Shown here piece by piece: positions 5,605 to 13,565 of a stretch of 64,000 nucleotides of DNA. The notes beneath the pieces were generated by a model. The model was not told where the DNA came from and did no database searches. It worked only from the letters and a program-made list of their open reading frames with translations. How positions within the stretch are numbered: position 1 is the stretch's first letter; each line of letters begins with the position of its first letter. The DNA is from Pseudomonadota bacterium. GTDB lineage: Bacteria; Pseudomonadota; Gammaproteobacteria; Steroidobacterales; Steroidobacteraceae. The stretch lies in the NCBI GenBank assembly GCA_021843755.1, contig JAKBWB010000039.1, positions 124,001-188,000 of the forward strand, read 5' to 3'. The position numbers and the translations under genes were made by a program.

Positions 5605-5638
5605 ACTCCCTGAGTTGAATCGTCGCAGGATTGAGGGA

Positions 5639-8600
5639 ATGACCGACGCTCCTCGAGACGTCATCCGCGTACGCGGCGCACGCCAGAACAACCTGAAGAA
5701 CCTCGATCTCGACCTGCCGCTCAACGAGCTGATCGTCGTGACGGGCGTCTCGGGCTCGGGCAAGTCCTCGCTCGTCTTCGATACGCTCTACGCCGAGGGC
5801 CAACGCCGATACGTCGAGACGTTCTCGCCCTATGCGCGCCAGTTCCTCGATCGCATGGACAAGCCGCAGGTCGATGCGATCACGGGGATTCCCCCGGCCA
5901 TTGCCATCGATCAGACCAACCCGGTGCGCACCTCACGCTCCACGGTCGGCACGATGACCGAGCTCAACGATCATCTGAAGCTGCTGTTCGCGCGCACCGC
6001 GACGCTCCATTGTCAGCGGTGCGGCCAGCCGGTGCGCCGCGACAGCGCCGACACCATCCACGCGGACCTCGTCGCACGAGCGGCGGCGGCCGGCGATCCG
6101 CGGCTGATGGTGACGTTCCCGGTCACCGTACCGGCCAACTTCCAGGAAAGCGAGGTCCGCGCACTGCTGGAGAAGCAGGGCTATACCCGCTTCATCGAGC
6201 GCCCGGTCGACCGCGCCGCGCCGCGCCGGCAGCCGGCCCGGCGGCGGCGCAAGTCCACGCCCGAGCCGGAGATCGCCCTCGAAGTCGTTCAGGACCGCTT
6301 CCGCGCCGCTCGCGCCGAGCGCAGCCGCATCATGGAGGCGCTCGAAGCGGCACTGCGTGTGGGGCGGGGCAAGGTGAACATCCGCGTGACCGACGAGAGC
6401 GATCCGCCCAACACCCTGGCGATCTGGCGCTACTCGAGCGGCCTGCACTGCGCCGAGTGCGATCTCTCCTACCAGGAGCCCACCCCGAGCCTGTTCTCGT
6501 TCAACTCTCCGCTCGGCGCCTGCGAGACCTGCCGCGGGTTCGGGCGCGTCATCGGCATCGACTATGGGCTGGTGGTGCCGGACGACGCCAAGACATTGCG
6601 CGGCGGCGCGGTCAGGCCTTGGCAAACTCAGTCCTATCGCGAATGTCAGGAGGATCTGGAGAAGTTCGCGCGCAAGCGCGGCGTGCCGCTCGACACGCCA
6701 TGGCGCGAGCTGTCCGCCGAGCAGCGTCGCTGGGTCATCGAGGGCGAAGGCGCGTGGAACAAGGGCGTGTGGTACGGCGCTCAGCGGTTCTTCGCCTGGC
6801 TCGAGAGCCGCTCATACAAGATGCACGTGCGCGTGCTGCTCTCGCGCTACCGCGCCTATACTCCATGCGAGACGTGCGGCGGCGCGCGCCTGAAGACCCA
6901 GGGTCTGCTGTGGCGCGTGGGCGATCACGAGTCGGCCCGTGCGGCGCTTGGGGCCGCCCCGCCCTTCCGGCCGCGCGGCGCAGAGTGGAGCGACGAGGTG
7001 CTGCAGCGTCTGCCGGGCCTGTCCATCCACGACCTGATGCTGCTGCCGGTGGCGCGCGCACGCGAGTTTTTCGAGCGGTTGCACCTCCCGAAGCCGCTCG
7101 ATGAAGCCACCGAGCTGCTGCTCGGCCAGGTGCGCGCACGCTTCGGCTACCTCGCCGACGTCGGTCTGGGGTATCTGACGCTCGACCGCCAGTCGCGCAC
7201 GCTCTCCGGCGGCGAGGTCCAGCGCATCAACCTGACCACCGCGCTCGGCACCTCGCTGGTCAACACTCTGTTCGTGCTCGACGAGCCCTCCATCGGATTG
7301 CACCCGCGCGACATGCAGCGGGTGATCACGGTGATGAAGCGCCTGCGGGATGCCGGCAATTCATTGCTGGTGGTGGAGCACGATCCGCAGATCATGCTGG
7401 AAGCCGACCGGATTCTCGATCTCGGGCCGGGCGCCGGCGAGCGCGGCGGCGACATCGTCTTCTTCGGCACGCCGCGCGAGATCCGCCGCAGCGCACACTC
7501 GCTCACCGGGCAATACCTGAGCGGCAGACGCCACGCCGGCAGCGAGCGGGCGGCCATCGGAGAACGGAGCGGAGCGGATACCCGAGGGGAGACGTCCAGG
7601 CGCCCGCCCGCAGCCCTGGCAAAGTCGGCATCGCGCGCTGAGCGGGTCCGCGGCGCAGCCTCCGCCGTGCCCCACGGGGAAGTCGTGGCCGAGGCTCGCT
7701 CGAATCGCTGGTTGGAGCTGCGCGGCGTCACACAACACAACCTCAAGAGCATCGATGCGCGTATCCCGCTGAAGCGCTTGGTCTGTGTGACGGGAGTATC
7801 CGGTTCGGGCAAGTCGACACTCATCGAGGACGTTCTCTACCCCGCGCTGCTGAAGTACCACGGCAAGCCGACCGAAGCGCCCGGCGCATTCACGGCACTC
7901 GCGGGCGCCGAGCTCATCGATGACGTGGTGATGGTCGATCAGAGCCCGATCGGCCGCACCACACGATCCAACCCCGCCAGCTACGTCGGCGCCTTCGACG
8001 CCATCCGCTCGCTGTTCGCCGCCGAGCCGGCGGCAACCGAGCGCAAATACACCGCCGGCACGTTCAGCTTCAACTCGGGCACCGGGCACTGCCCGACCTG
8101 CAACGGCAACGGCTTCGAGCACGTCGAGATGCAGTTCCTCTCGGATGTATATCTGCGCTGTCCGGACTGCAACGGACGTCGCTATCGCGACGAGGTGCTG
8201 GACATTCGCCGCGAAGGTGCCGACGGACGTCGCGCGAACATCGCCGAGGTGCTGGAGATGACCATTACCGGGGCGCTGGCGTTCTTCAGCGACTCCCGCG
8301 AGGTGTGCCAGCGTCTCGCGCCGCTGGCCGACGTCGGCCTGGAGTATGTCACGCTCGGGCAGCCGGTACCGACCCTCTCCGGCGGCGAAGCGCAGCGGCT
8401 GAAGCTCGCGGGGCACCTCGCGCAGGCCGGCTCCGTGCTCTCGAGCATCACGCACAAGGGCAAGCTCTTTCTGTTCGACGAGCCGACCACGGGGCTGCAC
8501 TTCCAGGACGTCACCCGACTGCTCGGCGCGTTTCGCAAACTGCTCGCCGCGGGCCACTCGCTGCTGGTCATCGAGCACAACCTCGACGTGATCCGCGCCT

Positions 8601-11440
8601 GCGACTGGATCATCGATCTCGGGCCCGAAGGGGGCGAGGCGGGCGGCCAGGTGGTGTGCGCCGGAACGCCGGCCGACGTGCGCCGCAACGCGCAGTCGCA
8701 CACTGGACGGGCGCTCATCGACTACGAGCGGGTCCTCACCGGCGAGCCGGCCGCCGAAACCGCGGCGGTCGCCGAGCCGACCCCGCACTACGGCGCGATC
8801 GTGGGCGACGCCCGGCATGACATCGTCATTCACAACGCCCGCGAGCACAATCTCAAAAGCATCGACGCGCGCATCCCGCGCAACCGGTTCACGGTCATTA
8901 CCGGTGTGTCGGGATCGGGAAAATCGACGCTCGCCTTCGACATCCTGTTCAATGAAGGACAACGGCGCTACCTGGAGTCTCTGAACGCTTACGCGCGCCA
9001 GTTCGTCCAGCCGGCGGCTCGGCCCGATGTGGATGCGATCTTCGGCATACCGCCTACCGTGGCGATCGAGCAGCGCACCAGCCGCGGCGGACGCAAGAGC
9101 ACGGTGGCGACGCTGACGGAGATCTATCATTTTCTGCGGCTTCTGTACGTGAAGCTCGGCAGTCAGTATTGCCCCGACTGCAACGTGCCGATCGAGCCGC
9201 AGAGCCTCGCCTCGATCGCGGCGCGCCTGCTGCGCACCTATCGCGGCAAGCGCATCGGGCTGCTCGCGCCGCTGGTCCTGGCGCGCAAGGGCTACTACAC
9301 CGACCTCGCCAAATGGGCTCACAAGAAGGGTTTCAAAGCCCTGCGCGTCGATGGCATCACTCTGCCGACAGCGCACTGGCCGCGACTGTCACGCTTCAAG
9401 GAACACACCATCGAGCTGCCCGTGGCCGATATCGACGTCAGCGCGCGCACCGACACACAGCTGCATGATGCGCTCGCGCGCGCCCTGGATTTCGGCAAGG
9501 GTGTGGTGCACGTGCTGGCGCCGGGCGCGGCGCGCGTAACGGTTTTCTCGACCAGGCGAGCCTGTCCGAACTGCGGACGCAGCTTCGCCGAGCCGGATCC
9601 CCGCCTGTTCTCGTTCAACTCCAAACACGGCTGGTGCGAGAGCTGCTACGGCACCGGCGTCGCATTGCCGGGATTCGACGCCGAGCAGACCGGCGAAGAG
9701 CACGGATGGAACGAGTGGCTCGCGGCCGAGCCGCCGGTCTGTCCGGCCTGTCGGGGCCGGCGGCTCAATCCCGTCGCGCTCAACGTGCGCTTTCGCGACC
9801 GCTCCATCGCCGAACTCACCGCGGAGCCGGTGCGGCGCACCGCCGAGTTCTTCGCGCAGCTGAAGCTCTCGGGACGCGAGCGGCAGATCGGTCGCGACGT
9901 GCTTGCCGAGATCCGCTCCCGGCTCGCCTTTCTCGAGCGGGTCGGTCTCGGCTACCTGCAGCTCGAGCGCTCCGCCCCCACGCTCTCCGGAGGCGAGGCG
10001 CAGCGTATCCGCCTCGCCGCACAACTCGGCTCGAACCTGCAGGGCGTGTGTTACGTATTGGACGAACCGACCATCGGCCTGCATCCGCGCGACAACGCCG
10101 TCCTGCTCGACTCGCTCACCGAGCTCTCGAGCCATCACAACACCCTGGTGGTGGTCGAGCACGACGAAGATACGATTCGCCGCGCCGATCACGTGCTCGA
10201 CCTCGGTCCGGGCGCCGGTGTGCTCGGCGGGCAGATCGTGGGCGAGGGGACGGTGCGGGACCTGATGCGCAATCCGCGCTCCATCACCGGACGTTTCCTG
10301 CGCCATCCCTTGCACCACCCGGCCGAGCCCCGCCGCAGCACACGGCGCGGCTCCCCGCATCTGACCCTGGAGAAAATCGCGCTGCACAACGTGCGCGCCG
10401 ATGTGCGCATTCCACTCGGCCGGCTGGTGGTCGTCACGGGTGTATCGGGCTCCGGCAAATCGACCGTCGCCCGCGATGTCCTGTACACGAATCTGCGCCG
10501 GCTGCTCGGGGCTGCCCAGGACATGCAGCGCAAGAGCCGCGGCGGCGCGGGCCGGCGCAGCGCAGCCGACCTCATCGGCTGCCGCGCCCTGCGCGGCCTG
10601 GAGCACCTCGACCGGGTCCTCGAGGTGGACCAGACACCCATCGGCAAGACACCACGGTCGTGTCCGGCGACGTATATCGGGTTCTGGGACGACATCCGGC
10701 GGATCTTCGCGACCACCAGCGAAGCACGGCTGCGCGGCTACACGGCCAGCCGCTTCTCCTTCAACACCGCCGGCGGGCGCTGCGATGCGTGCGAGGGCCA
10801 GGGAATCAAGACCATCGAGATGAGCTTCCTGCCCGAGGTGAAGGTACTCTGCGATGTGTGCGGCGGGCGGCGCTTCAACCCCGAGACGCTTGCGGTGCTC
10901 TGGCGCGGCCGGAACATCGGCGACGTGCTGGCGATGAACGTCGATGAGGCGGTACCCTTTTTCGCGGCTCATGCACGCATTCATCATGCGTTGAAGCTGC
11001 TGCAGGACGTCGGTCTGGGCTATCTGACCCTCGGCCAGCAAAGTCCGACGCTCTCGGGCGGCGAGGCACAACGCATCAAGCTCGTGACCGAGCTGGCCAA
11101 GGTCCGCGATCCGCCCGCCGCGGGACCGCGTCCGACGATGCGGCACACCCTCTACGTTCTCGACGAGCCGACGGTCGGTCTGCACATGGCGGACGTCGAG
11201 AAGCTGATCCATGTCTTGCACCGCCTCGTCGACGCCGGCAACACCGCGGTGCTCGTGGAGCACAACCTGGACATCATGGCCGAGGCGGATTGGATCATCG
11301 ACATGGGACCGGAGGCCGGCGAGAGCGGCGGTCGGGTGGTGGCCCAGGGAGCGCCGGCGGCGGTGGCGCGCAGCGCCAGGCGCTCGCACACCGGCCGGGT
11401 GCTCGCGGCATTCCTCGCGCAGCGCTGCGCGCGCGCCTGA
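5639..11440 (+). CDS. uvrA: Double-length UvrA (four ABC ATPase cores)
   Basis: A 1,933-residue protein, twice the roughly 940 residues of ordinary UvrA, the damage-recognition ATPase of nucleotide excision repair. Four Walker A motifs (GVSGSGKS) are visible at about residues 36, 719, 1089 and 1601, and four LSGGE signatures at about 522, 914, 1449 and 1805. Each half therefore carries the UvrA ABC-I/ABC-II pair. Zinc-binding CxxC pairs are kept in both halves, including the C-terminal fingers CPTC...CPDC (first half) and CDAC...CDVC (second half). The first half keeps a region like the UvrB-binding and insertion domains (LLEKQGYTRF, EVVQDRFR). A disordered basic linker lies near residues 640-690. 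The ATG at 5639 is chosen for AGGA 8 nt upstream. The protein would act as an intramolecular tandem where normal UvrA is a dimer; this is inference. Confidence 0.93.
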   Translation: MTDAPRDVIRVRGARQNNLKNLDLDLPLNELIVVTGVSGSGKSSLVFDTLYAEGQRRYVETFSPYARQFLDRMDKPQVDAITGIPPAIAIDQTNPVRTSRSTVGTMTELNDHLKLLFARTATLHCQRCGQPVRRDSADTIHADLVARAAAAGDPRLMVTFPVTVPANFQESEVRALLEKQGYTRFIERPVDRAAPRRQPARRRRKSTPEPEIALEVVQDRFRAARAERSRIMEALEAALRVGRGKVNIRVTDESDPPNTLAIWRYSSGLHCAECDLSYQEPTPSLFSFNSPLGACETCRGFGRVIGIDYGLVVPDDAKTLRGGAVRPWQTQSYRECQEDLEKFARKRGVPLDTPWRELSAEQRRWVIEGEGAWNKGVWYGAQRFFAWLESRSYKMHVRVLLSRYRAYTPCETCGGARLKTQGLLWRVGDHESARAALGAAPPFRPRGAEWSDEVLQRLPGLSIHDLMLLPVARAREFFERLHLPKPLDEATELLLGQVRARFGYLADVGLGYLTLDRQSRTLSGGEVQRINLTTALGTSLVNTLFVLDEPSIGLHPRDMQRVITVMKRLRDAGNSLLVVEHDPQIMLEADRILDLGPGAGERGGDIVFFGTPREIRRSAHSLTGQYLSGRRHAGSERAAIGERSGADTRGETSRRPPAALAKSASRAERVRGAASAVPHGEVVAEARSNRWLELRGVTQHNLKSIDARIPLKRLVCVTGVSGSGKSTLIEDVLYPALLKYHGKPTEAPGAFTALAGAELIDDVVMVDQSPIGRTTRSNPASYVGAFDAIRSLFAAEPAATERKYTAGTFSFNSGTGHCPTCNGNGFEHVEMQFLSDVYLRCPDCNGRRYRDEVLDIRREGADGRRANIAEVLEMTITGALAFFSDSREVCQRLAPLADVGLEYVTLGQPVPTLSGGEAQRLKLAGHLAQAGSVLSSITHKGKLFLFDEPTTGLHFQDVTRLLGAFRKLLAAGHSLLVIEHNLDVIRACDWIIDLGPEGGEAGGQVVCAGTPADVRRNAQSHTGRALIDYERVLTGEPAAETAAVAEPTPHYGAIVGDARHDIVIHNAREHNLKSIDARIPRNRFTVITGVSGSGKSTLAFDILFNEGQRRYLESLNAYARQFVQPAARPDVDAIFGIPPTVAIEQRTSRGGRKSTVATLTEIYHFLRLLYVKLGSQYCPDCNVPIEPQSLASIAARLLRTYRGKRIGLLAPLVLARKGYYTDLAKWAHKKGFKALRVDGITLPTAHWPRLSRFKEHTIELPVADIDVSARTDTQLHDALARALDFGKGVVHVLAPGAARVTVFSTRRACPNCGRSFAEPDPRLFSFNSKHGWCESCYGTGVALPGFDAEQTGEEHGWNEWLAAEPPVCPACRGRRLNPVALNVRFRDRSIAELTAEPVRRTAEFFAQLKLSGRERQIGRDVLAEIRSRLAFLERVGLGYLQLERSAPTLSGGEAQRIRLAAQLGSNLQGVCYVLDEPTIGLHPRDNAVLLDSLTELSSHHNTLVVVEHDEDTIRRADHVLDLGPGAGVLGGQIVGEGTVRDLMRNPRSITGRFLRHPLHHPAEPRRSTRRGSPHLTLEKIALHNVRADVRIPLGRLVVVTGVSGSGKSTVARDVLYTNLRRLLGAAQDMQRKSRGGAGRRSAADLIGCRALRGLEHLDRVLEVDQTPIGKTPRSCPATYIGFWDDIRRIFATTSEARLRGYTASRFSFNTAGGRCDACEGQGIKTIEMSFLPEVKVLCDVCGGRRFNPETLAVLWRGRNIGDVLAMNVDEAVPFFAAHARIHHALKLLQDVGLGYLTLGQQSPTLSGGEAQRIKLVTELAKVRDPPAAGPRPTMRHTLYVLDEPTVGLHMADVEKLIHVLHRLVDAGNTAVLVEHNLDIMAEADWIIDMGPEAGESGGRVVAQGAPAAVARSARRSHTGRVLAAFLAQRCARA

Positions 11441-11874: not shown

Positions 11875-13362
11875 TCAGTTCTTTCTGACTCGCTCGCCCA
11901 GCCGCTCGAGCAGCCGGGTGAACGGCGTGCTTTTCTCCGACTTGCGCGCCAGTGCACCAGCGCGGCCGTCGATCGCGCCGTCTCGTCCCTCGTCAATCGT
12001 CAGCTCATTCGCACCGAGGATCTCGAGCGTCTCTTCCAGCGTCTTGGGACCGCGCCGCTCGCGCGCATGCACTTGAGTGTTGCCCGCAGATCGCTTCTGC
12101 GGGGGTATCGGCCGCAGCTCGCGCACCGGGGCCTTGGGTCTTTGCGATTCGGCCGCCGGCTCAGTCTCACTCGGCACCGGCGCATCGGCGTCGAACAGCT
12201 TGAATTCGTTGTCAGCGCGCTGGCGCTTCGTTGCGGCCGCGCGCAACGGGACCGTGTTCGAGTCGCCGCTCACGCGCCGGCGCTCCTCTGCGCTGACCGG
12301 GACCACGGCGGCCGAGACGAACTCGGAGCGAACGTATGCGGCAACCTGCTTGGCCGAGATCGGATCGTTGAAGAATCCGAGCCGCAGCCCGAACCACTTG
12401 CGGCCCTCGCGGCTCCCCTCGACGCAGTAGAGACTGTACGCGCTGAATATGGCCAGCGGCGGCAGCTTCTCGACGCTGATCGGCTGGACCGACCATTGCA
12501 GTTGCACCGCGAACGCCGCGGGCTTGGCCGACTCCGACGTACGACCCTCCAGACACTGCAGCGCCTGCGCATCGGTCAGCGGCACACCGGGGGGTGACGG
12601 CATGGGCAGCGGGCGCGGCGCGCTCCTCGTGACGGTCGGCTGATCGAGCGCGGCGAGAACTTCCTTGATGTTCGAGCCGGCCAACGCCGTCGGCGCCTTC
12701 GCGGCGCGGGCCACCGTGGTCTTCGCCCGGGTCGGCGGCGCGAGGGCGGCGATTCCCGAACGCTCGGCCGCGGCGCTCGCGCGCGGTTTGAAGCCTGCCT
12801 CCGGTACCGTTACGGCGGCCTGCTTCGCCGCAACCGGCGGCGCGGCAGGGGAACCTGCCGCAGGTCGCAACGTCGGCACGGCCGCAGTCGCGTCGGCTCC
12901 CGGCGCGGCGGCGCGCGTCTGCGCCGGCGGAGCCGGCGCGACTTCCGCCGCCAGCTCGATTTCCATCGCAGGCTCCACCTCGGGCGCCGGTGGTCGCGGG
13001 CCTGCCGCCTCCGCCGCCTGAGCCTCGGCGGCGGCTACGGCCCGGGCCCGCAGCTTCTTCCCGGGTGCTTCGCCCGCCCAGGCGCCGGGGTAGACCTCGC
13101 GCACCAGGCCCAGCCAGCTTTCCGCCTCGGCCTGCGTCGCGAAGAACCCCATGTGCAGCCGGAAGCGCTCACGCCCTTCTTCGAAGCGGCGGCTCACGAA
13201 GAAATTGAACCGGCTGAGTTCGGGCATGTCCGCGCGCGGCAGCGCCATGGGCGTGCTGGAGGAGCACAGATTGATCACGAACGGGCCCGCCTCGGCGGCG
13301 GACTCCACCGATGATGCGGCGCCGTTCGTCGGAAGCGGCGCCAGATTTTCCGCTGGTGTCAT
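11875..13362 (-). CDS. SPOR-type repeat protein under a c-di-GMP riboswitch
   Basis: A 495-residue protein with two SPOR-like modules. The first is at about residues 27-100 (FFVSRRFEEGRERFRLHMGFF, then a helix EAESWLGLVREVYPGAW). The second is at about 283-352 (YSLYCVEGSREGRKWFGLRLGFF, then SAKQVAAYVRSEF). Between them lies an Ala/Pro-rich, probably disordered linker of about 170 residues. A conserved-looking tail (TLEETLEILGANELTIDEG, then TRLLERLGERVRK) ends the protein. SPOR domains bind peptidoglycan with denuded glycan strands at division sites. There is no signal peptide or clear membrane segment, so whether this protein reaches the periplasm is open. The mRNA leader holds a cyclic-di-GMP class-I riboswitch, so expression should follow the c-di-GMP level. 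SD-like AAGAGA precedes the ATG. Confidence 0.85.
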   Translation of the reverse strand: MTPAENLAPLPTNGAASSVESAAEAGPFVINLCSSSTPMALPRADMPELSRFNFFVSRRFEEGRERFRLHMGFFATQAEAESWLGLVREVYPGAWAGEAPGKKLRARAVAAAEAQAAEAAGPRPPAPEVEPAMEIELAAEVAPAPPAQTRAAAPGADATAAVPTLRPAAGSPAAPPVAAKQAAVTVPEAGFKPRASAAAERSGIAALAPPTRAKTTVARAAKAPTALAGSNIKEVLAALDQPTVTRSAPRPLPMPSPPGVPLTDAQALQCLEGRTSESAKPAAFAVQLQWSVQPISVEKLPPLAIFSAYSLYCVEGSREGRKWFGLRLGFFNDPISAKQVAAYVRSEFVSAAVVPVSAEERRRVSGDSNTVPLRAAATKRQRADNEFKLFDADAPVPSETEPAAESQRPKAPVRELRPIPPQKRSAGNTQVHARERRGPKTLEETLEILGANELTIDEGRDGAIDGRAGALARKSEKSTPFTRLLERLGERVRKN

Positions 13363-13444
13363 GTCTCTTGGACGCTCGGTTGAACGCCCCGGCGCGACGG
13401 TGATTCAGCACATGCGGGAGAAGCGAGCGATGCGCCTGTCGCGC

Positions 13445-13535
13445 GATCGTGGCAGCCCCGCCGTCATGGGATCGTCCCGAAGACCGGTGGCTTTGCGTCC
13501 CCGTCTTTCGACGGGTTTGCCCTTATCACACCGCG
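13445..13535 (-). promoter_or_regulatory. Cyclic-di-GMP class-I riboswitch (GEMM-I)
   Basis: On the minus strand the sequence AGGGCAAACC is followed by a GC stem capped by a GAAA tetraloop (CCCGTC-GAAA-GACGGG) and then GACGCAAAGCC. This is the invariant P2 arm of GEMM-I riboswitches with its conserved joining strand. A P3 arm follows (CCGG...GACGG), with the receptor strand CGGGGCTGCC, equivalent to the GCGGGGUUACC strand of the Vibrio Vc2 aptamer. P1 is variable in this class; TCGCG and CGCGA flanks could pair. It ends about 85 nt before the ATG of the SPOR-type gene and starts just after a good promoter. No intrinsic terminator with a U-tract is seen downstream, so translational control is more likely. 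The exact ends are approximate. Confidence 0.92.
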
Positions 13536-13536
13536 A

Positions 13537-13565
13537 AGTTTCGAGGCAGGAACGCTGCGAGTCAA
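13537..13565 (-). promoter_or_regulatory. Sigma70-like promoter of the riboswitch leader
   Basis: On the minus strand TTGACT (13565-13560) and GAAACT (13542-13537) are separated by exactly 17 bp. The -35 box matches 5 of 6 consensus positions; the -10 box is weaker (3 of 6). The expected transcription start, a few bases downstream of the -10 box, falls right at the 5' end of the riboswitch aptamer, which is what one expects for a riboswitch leader. Confidence 0.6.

Follow-up and report, generated by a model that had tools for sequence, protein, structure and literature searches.

A class-I c-di-GMP riboswitch precedes a conserved gene for a predicted cytoplasmic SPOR-fold protein in Steroidobacteraceae

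The window analyzed here, a stretch of 64,000 nucleotides from contig JAKBWB010000039.1 of a member of the Steroidobacteraceae, a family of Gammaproteobacteria (assembly GCA_021843755.1), carries on its minus strand what is very probably an ordinary class-I c-di-GMP riboswitch, located at the start of a monocistronic mRNA that encodes a predicted cytoplasmic target with SPOR-type folds. The riboswitch class is already known; the target family is conserved and new. In the freely accessible literature other than PMC13029372, the one paper in which all three terms occur, no link between c-di-GMP riboswitches and SPOR proteins was found. The features of the locus are collected in Table 1.

Table 1. 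Features of the riboswitch locus, in coordinates of the window.
Feature	Position	Strand	Basis
Promoter TTGACT-17-GAAACT	13537..13565	(-)	sequence, read directly; kept in relatives
c-di-GMP-I (GEMM-I) riboswitch aptamer, P1-P2-P3	13447..13530	(-)	RF01051, RF03167, core bases by position
P3 3' strand GCGGGGCUGCC, common to aptamer and competing hairpin	13451..13461	(-)	folds, pair counts
Post-aptamer hairpin CGAU-C-GCGC/GCGC-AUCG	13428..13449	(-)	alignments A2, A3
Segment CUCGCUUCUCCCGC, potential partner of the P3 3' strand in the competing hairpin	13414..13427	(-)	folds, pair counts
Ribosome-binding region GAGCG / AAGAGA, weak	13364..13377	(-)	sequence, read directly; leaders of relatives
Gene for 495-aa protein with two SPOR-fold modules	11875..13362	(-)	AF2 models, fold matches, hhalign, PF05036 in relatives, hydropathy

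A search of the whole 3.32-Mb genome with the c-di-GMP-I model RF01051 returned a single match, which is the aptamer itself (13530-13447, minus strand) and which covers model positions 1-87 of 87 with 78.9 bits against a cut-off of 35 (E 9.3e-16). The sequence-only reading had proposed a GEMM-I core on this strand and a comparison with RF01051; the full-length match lies far above the cut-off, and all the motifs that were named are present, namely GGGCAAACC, a GAAA-capped P2 stem (CCCGUC-GAAA-GACGGG), GACGCAAAGCC, and a P3 arm ending in GCGGGGCUGCC. The plain folding energy of the aptamer is unexceptional (z -1.2 to -2.1), as expected because this is a tertiary-structured RNA, and the aptamer call rests on covariance models and conservation rather than on folding energy. 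With the RF01051 class, the element shares every core motif, the GAAA loop of P2, the G20/A47/C92 bases described below, and a 5'-leader site before a start codon; the aptamer itself is no different from that class, whereas the regulated gene belongs to a family that has no Pfam or NCBIfam annotation. Since the genome encodes 18 GGDEF domains, c-di-GMP signalling is expected in this organism.

To place the locus in its wider context, family and order genomes and a set of named species were searched with the protein and with RF01051, and the upstream DNA was then read. The aptamer lies just upstream of the gene in 63 of the 76 non-redundant protein-family members with enough readable upstream DNA and is absent from that place in the other 13; related species are not independent samples in these counts, while the pattern spans many genera, and some of the matches are labelled Steroidobacteraceae. 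The proposed linkage in cis to the gene of the protein with the SPOR-like modules is thus conserved. Seventeen family genomes contain the gene and exactly one GEMM-I aptamer: the two occur together in 14 and apart in 2, and in the remaining genome the gene is situated at a contig end, hence 14 of the 16 determinable cases are linked. Within the genus of the window, aptamer and gene occur together in all determinable genomes that have the gene and exactly one GEMM-I. This distribution marks the linked SPOR-fold gene as a putative core c-di-GMP target across much of the bacterial family.

Where GEMM-I aptamers are present, the family and order genomes have 1-21 of them, and their other targets include PilM, secreted surface proteins with Ig/fn3 domains, and M23 peptidases, among others; PilM, Ig/fn3 and M23 targets fit known c-di-GMP biology. 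At several loci (L032, L047, L119, and similar ones), a c-di-GMP-I aptamer is found upstream of an M23 peptidase gene, which is a direct, sequence-predicted link between the c-di-GMP-I class and peptidoglycan in this order. Seven further loci (L030, L034, L036, L037, L038, L042, L116) carry two c-di-GMP-I aptamers in tandem, and several of these tandems are followed by a gene for a secreted protein that bears an SGSVGDGP-like motif. The riboswitch-linked gene of the window stands alone and its upstream neighbour varies between relatives, thus a function could not be assigned from operon neighbours. Convergent with it is a gene for a 1941-aa UvrA-like protein (5615-11440, plus strand), seemingly two UvrA in one chain with two interaction domains; most of the relatives that were inspected encode a similar long UvrA close to the gene.

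The 495-aa protein gave nothing useful in Pfam and NCBIfam searches, no match to the Pfam SPOR family (PF05036) at E<=1, and no relative in PDB sequence searches. AlphaFold2 predicts two confident modules, one spanning residues 28-98 and the other 283-356, with a long stretch of disordered linker between them, and hhalign relates the modules to each other as homologs (97.4%). Each model matches the SPOR domain of RlpA with Z 7.8, a value below 8 and thus only moderately strong, with rmsd of 2.5 and 2.4 A over about 72 residues, and the SPOR domains of CwlC, DamX, and DedD are also among the best fold matches of both modules. In the ranking for module 1, the top six rows (these four SPOR domains, with RlpA appearing twice, and BPSS2145) stand out from the unrelated rows below them. 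Four relatives of the protein family (L073, L077, L078, L080) pass the PF05036 cut-off. The earlier description of two SPOR-like modules, made from the letters alone, is thus right in substance: the fold, the homology of the modules, and the four relatives speak for it, although the window protein itself has no Pfam match. The modules share the beta-alpha-beta-beta-alpha-beta type fold of the SPOR family (RlpA, DamX, DedD, CwlC, FtsN); they differ from it in a shortened or lost first helix, the lack of an export signal as judged by hydropathy, and the presence of two modules on one long linker.

Known SPOR domains bind denuded septal glycan, and in RlpA a glutamine and a basic patch (Q270, R302, R309, and R311) are involved (PMC6895207). 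In module 2 of our protein, Q287, the equivalent of the glycan-contacting Gln, and R327, which matches one RlpA arginine by motif, are invariant in 42 of 42 sequences. In module 1, the conserved-Gln position is occupied by Asn in the window protein and by N or T among the 42 sequences. As to location, hydropathy indicates neither a signal peptide nor a membrane segment in the window protein or in its riboswitch-linked relatives, and, owing to a stop codon in the same frame, the window gene could be lengthened by no more than 14 codons before the ATG, so that no signal peptide is hidden by a wrongly chosen start. The simplest reading, because signal peptide and membrane segment are lacking, is that the protein is cytoplasmic, as predicted from its sequence. 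The hydrophobic moment of the protein peaks in a C-terminal amphipathic helix (residues 480-494, TPFTRLLERLGERVRKN) with a conserved hydrophobic face, by which a peripheral contact with the membrane is possible.

These data also bear on the alternative of a target that genuinely works in the envelope or in division, whose SPOR modules would be exported non-classically and bind denuded glycan, such that c-di-GMP would tune septal peptidoglycan. The SPOR fold of both modules, the invariant Q287 and R327, and the occurrence of M23 peptidases among the GEMM-I targets of the order all agree with such a role; however, the riboswitch-linked relatives have no route of export apparent in hydropathy, the Asn of module 1 replaces the glycan-contact Gln, and the distant long paralogs that do have a signal peptide or membrane segment have no aptamer upstream. 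We consider this alternative unlikely, and the peptidoglycan-binding, envelope assignment of the sequence-only reading is not upheld. The long proteins in question (L082, L084-L088; 775-840 aa) have a signal peptide, the same SPOR-like module, and no riboswitch upstream, and are possibly secreted paralogs; the four that were scanned (L082, L085-L087) contain TPR, and these SPOR+TPR proteins of the same order thus have the module in common with the window protein while differing from it in length, signal peptide, TPR, and the missing riboswitch. Beyond the prediction of a cytoplasmic SPOR-fold target, we put forward more tentatively, as a possibility, that c-di-GMP has a core target throughout the bacterial family in a new class of SPOR-fold proteins acting on the cytoplasmic side, with two RNP-type modules and an amphipathic membrane-targeting helix and without septal-glycan reading any longer, and that their riboswitch tends to be retained longest in lineages that lose their other c-di-GMP riboswitches.

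In the Rfam scan of the window, the sole hit is to RF03167 (c-di-GMP-I-GGC), which scores 75.6 bits (cut-off 59; E-value 3.9e-16). Read by position, the ligand-contact bases are G20, A47, and C92 (Vc2 numbering), which we take from known structures to be the c-di-GMP set; a pattern match in the fetched loci of relatives found the same three bases in 83 of 87 distinct aptamers. The RF03167 consensus GACGCGAA requires a G at the equivalent of Vc2 A47, which is absent here, since the aptamer reads GACGCAAA; that this base defines RF03167 is taken from the consensus and the family name. Another ligand on the strength of the RF03167 label was therefore rejected, as the distinguishing base (GACGC-G-AA) is the canonical A in our aptamer (GACGC-A-AA). 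In the genus g67, two aptamers preceding the same gene family (L141:834-922 and L142:1776-1864) have A at Vc2 position 20, a change of the type known from cGAMP-sensing GEMM variants, and the ligand preference may have shifted in this genus. A variant aptamer in the window (c-di-GMP-I-GGC or cGAMP-type GEMM-Ib) sensing a ligand other than c-di-GMP is quite improbable: RF03167 is the family with the best E-value, matched over its full length above the cut-off, and the g67 aptamers carry their A before the same gene, but the GGC-distinguishing base is A, position 20 is G and not the cGAMP-type A, and RF01051 gives more bits. By its bases, the aptamer is a canonical c-di-GMP-I element and no variant, the GGC label being a nearest-model effect. 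The class and its cGAMP variants have been reviewed (PMC7266159).

Upstream of the aptamer, TTGACT (13565-13560) and GAAACT (13542-13537) are separated by a 17-nt spacer on the minus strand, and their position implies that transcription starts approximately at the first aptamer base (about 13530). Of 47 relatives, 41 have the motif TTGACN-17-nnnACT at the corresponding position, and it is aligned in 15 leaders of the genus as well; in the window it was not picked up by a scan for the sigma-70 consensus. The ATG (13362) lies 84 nt 3' of the aptamer, and in relatives the aptamer usually ends 72-130 nt before the conserved start. Both the promoter with a start at the aptamer and the distance of about 85 nt to the gene had been correctly read from the window. 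Many other relatives have CGGGGAA in the ribosome-binding region.

No intrinsic terminator was found on the minus strand of the window, and a terminator was accordingly rejected as the expression platform. The post-aptamer hairpin is kept in position across relatives with some compensatory changes (alignments A2 and A3), and it can be extended if the segment that follows pairs with the P3 3' strand; the aptamer would thereby be broken up. In the alignment of relatives, 92% of the cells of this competing hairpin are paired, compared to 43-56% in slid controls; its covariation is modest, with double changes at two pairs only, in part because the aptamer fixes the P3 strand. In folding ensembles, its mean pairing is 0.55 vs. 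0.36 for shuffled linkers, a modest gain, and in the window sequence itself it is 0.02 and not dominant in the full-length ensemble. The segment CUCGCUUCUCCCGC may also pair with the ribosome-binding region, in a manner inconsistent between species. With the aptamer closed, predicted access to the ribosome site falls in 26 of 40 leaders, which come from related, non-independent species; it falls in most leaders of the window genus and rises in some other species, and a clean switch that sequesters the ribosome site was rejected since the predicted shifts go both ways. The expression platform is probably translational, given that no terminator is present and that P3 faces competition from a conserved hairpin, and for the window genus we lean slightly towards an OFF switch (repression). 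A conserved relic or a chance match without regulatory role is a hardly credible explanation of the aptamer: the unremarkable folding energy, the inconsistent ribosome-site access, and the weak competing pairing in the window would allow it, but the covariance scores far over the cut-offs, the linkage, and the conserved spacing and promoter speak against it.

For a functional class-I riboswitch, the following mechanism may be proposed. RNA polymerase would start at the conserved promoter, and the first ~84 nt would fold into the aptamer. Binding of c-di-GMP would stabilize P1/P3 and make the P3 3' strand unavailable to the downstream hairpin, which would alter how accessible the start region, 84 nt further on, is to ribosomes. 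The product would reside in the cytoplasm, possibly in peripheral contact with the membrane, and would contain two SPOR/RNP-type folds; it would most likely be a scaffold or adaptor whose dose would follow c-di-GMP.

The interest of this system lies in a conserved target whose apparent cytoplasmic location misfits the usual role of its fold; if the protein is indeed cytoplasmic, SPOR folds would extend beyond septal peptidoglycan. Across the bacterial family, Steroidobacteraceae included, a single unnamed gene family has retained a c-di-GMP riboswitch, and a protein without Pfam annotation that is the sole GEMM-I target of its genome offers a dependable entry point to the role of c-di-GMP in these little-studied bacteria.
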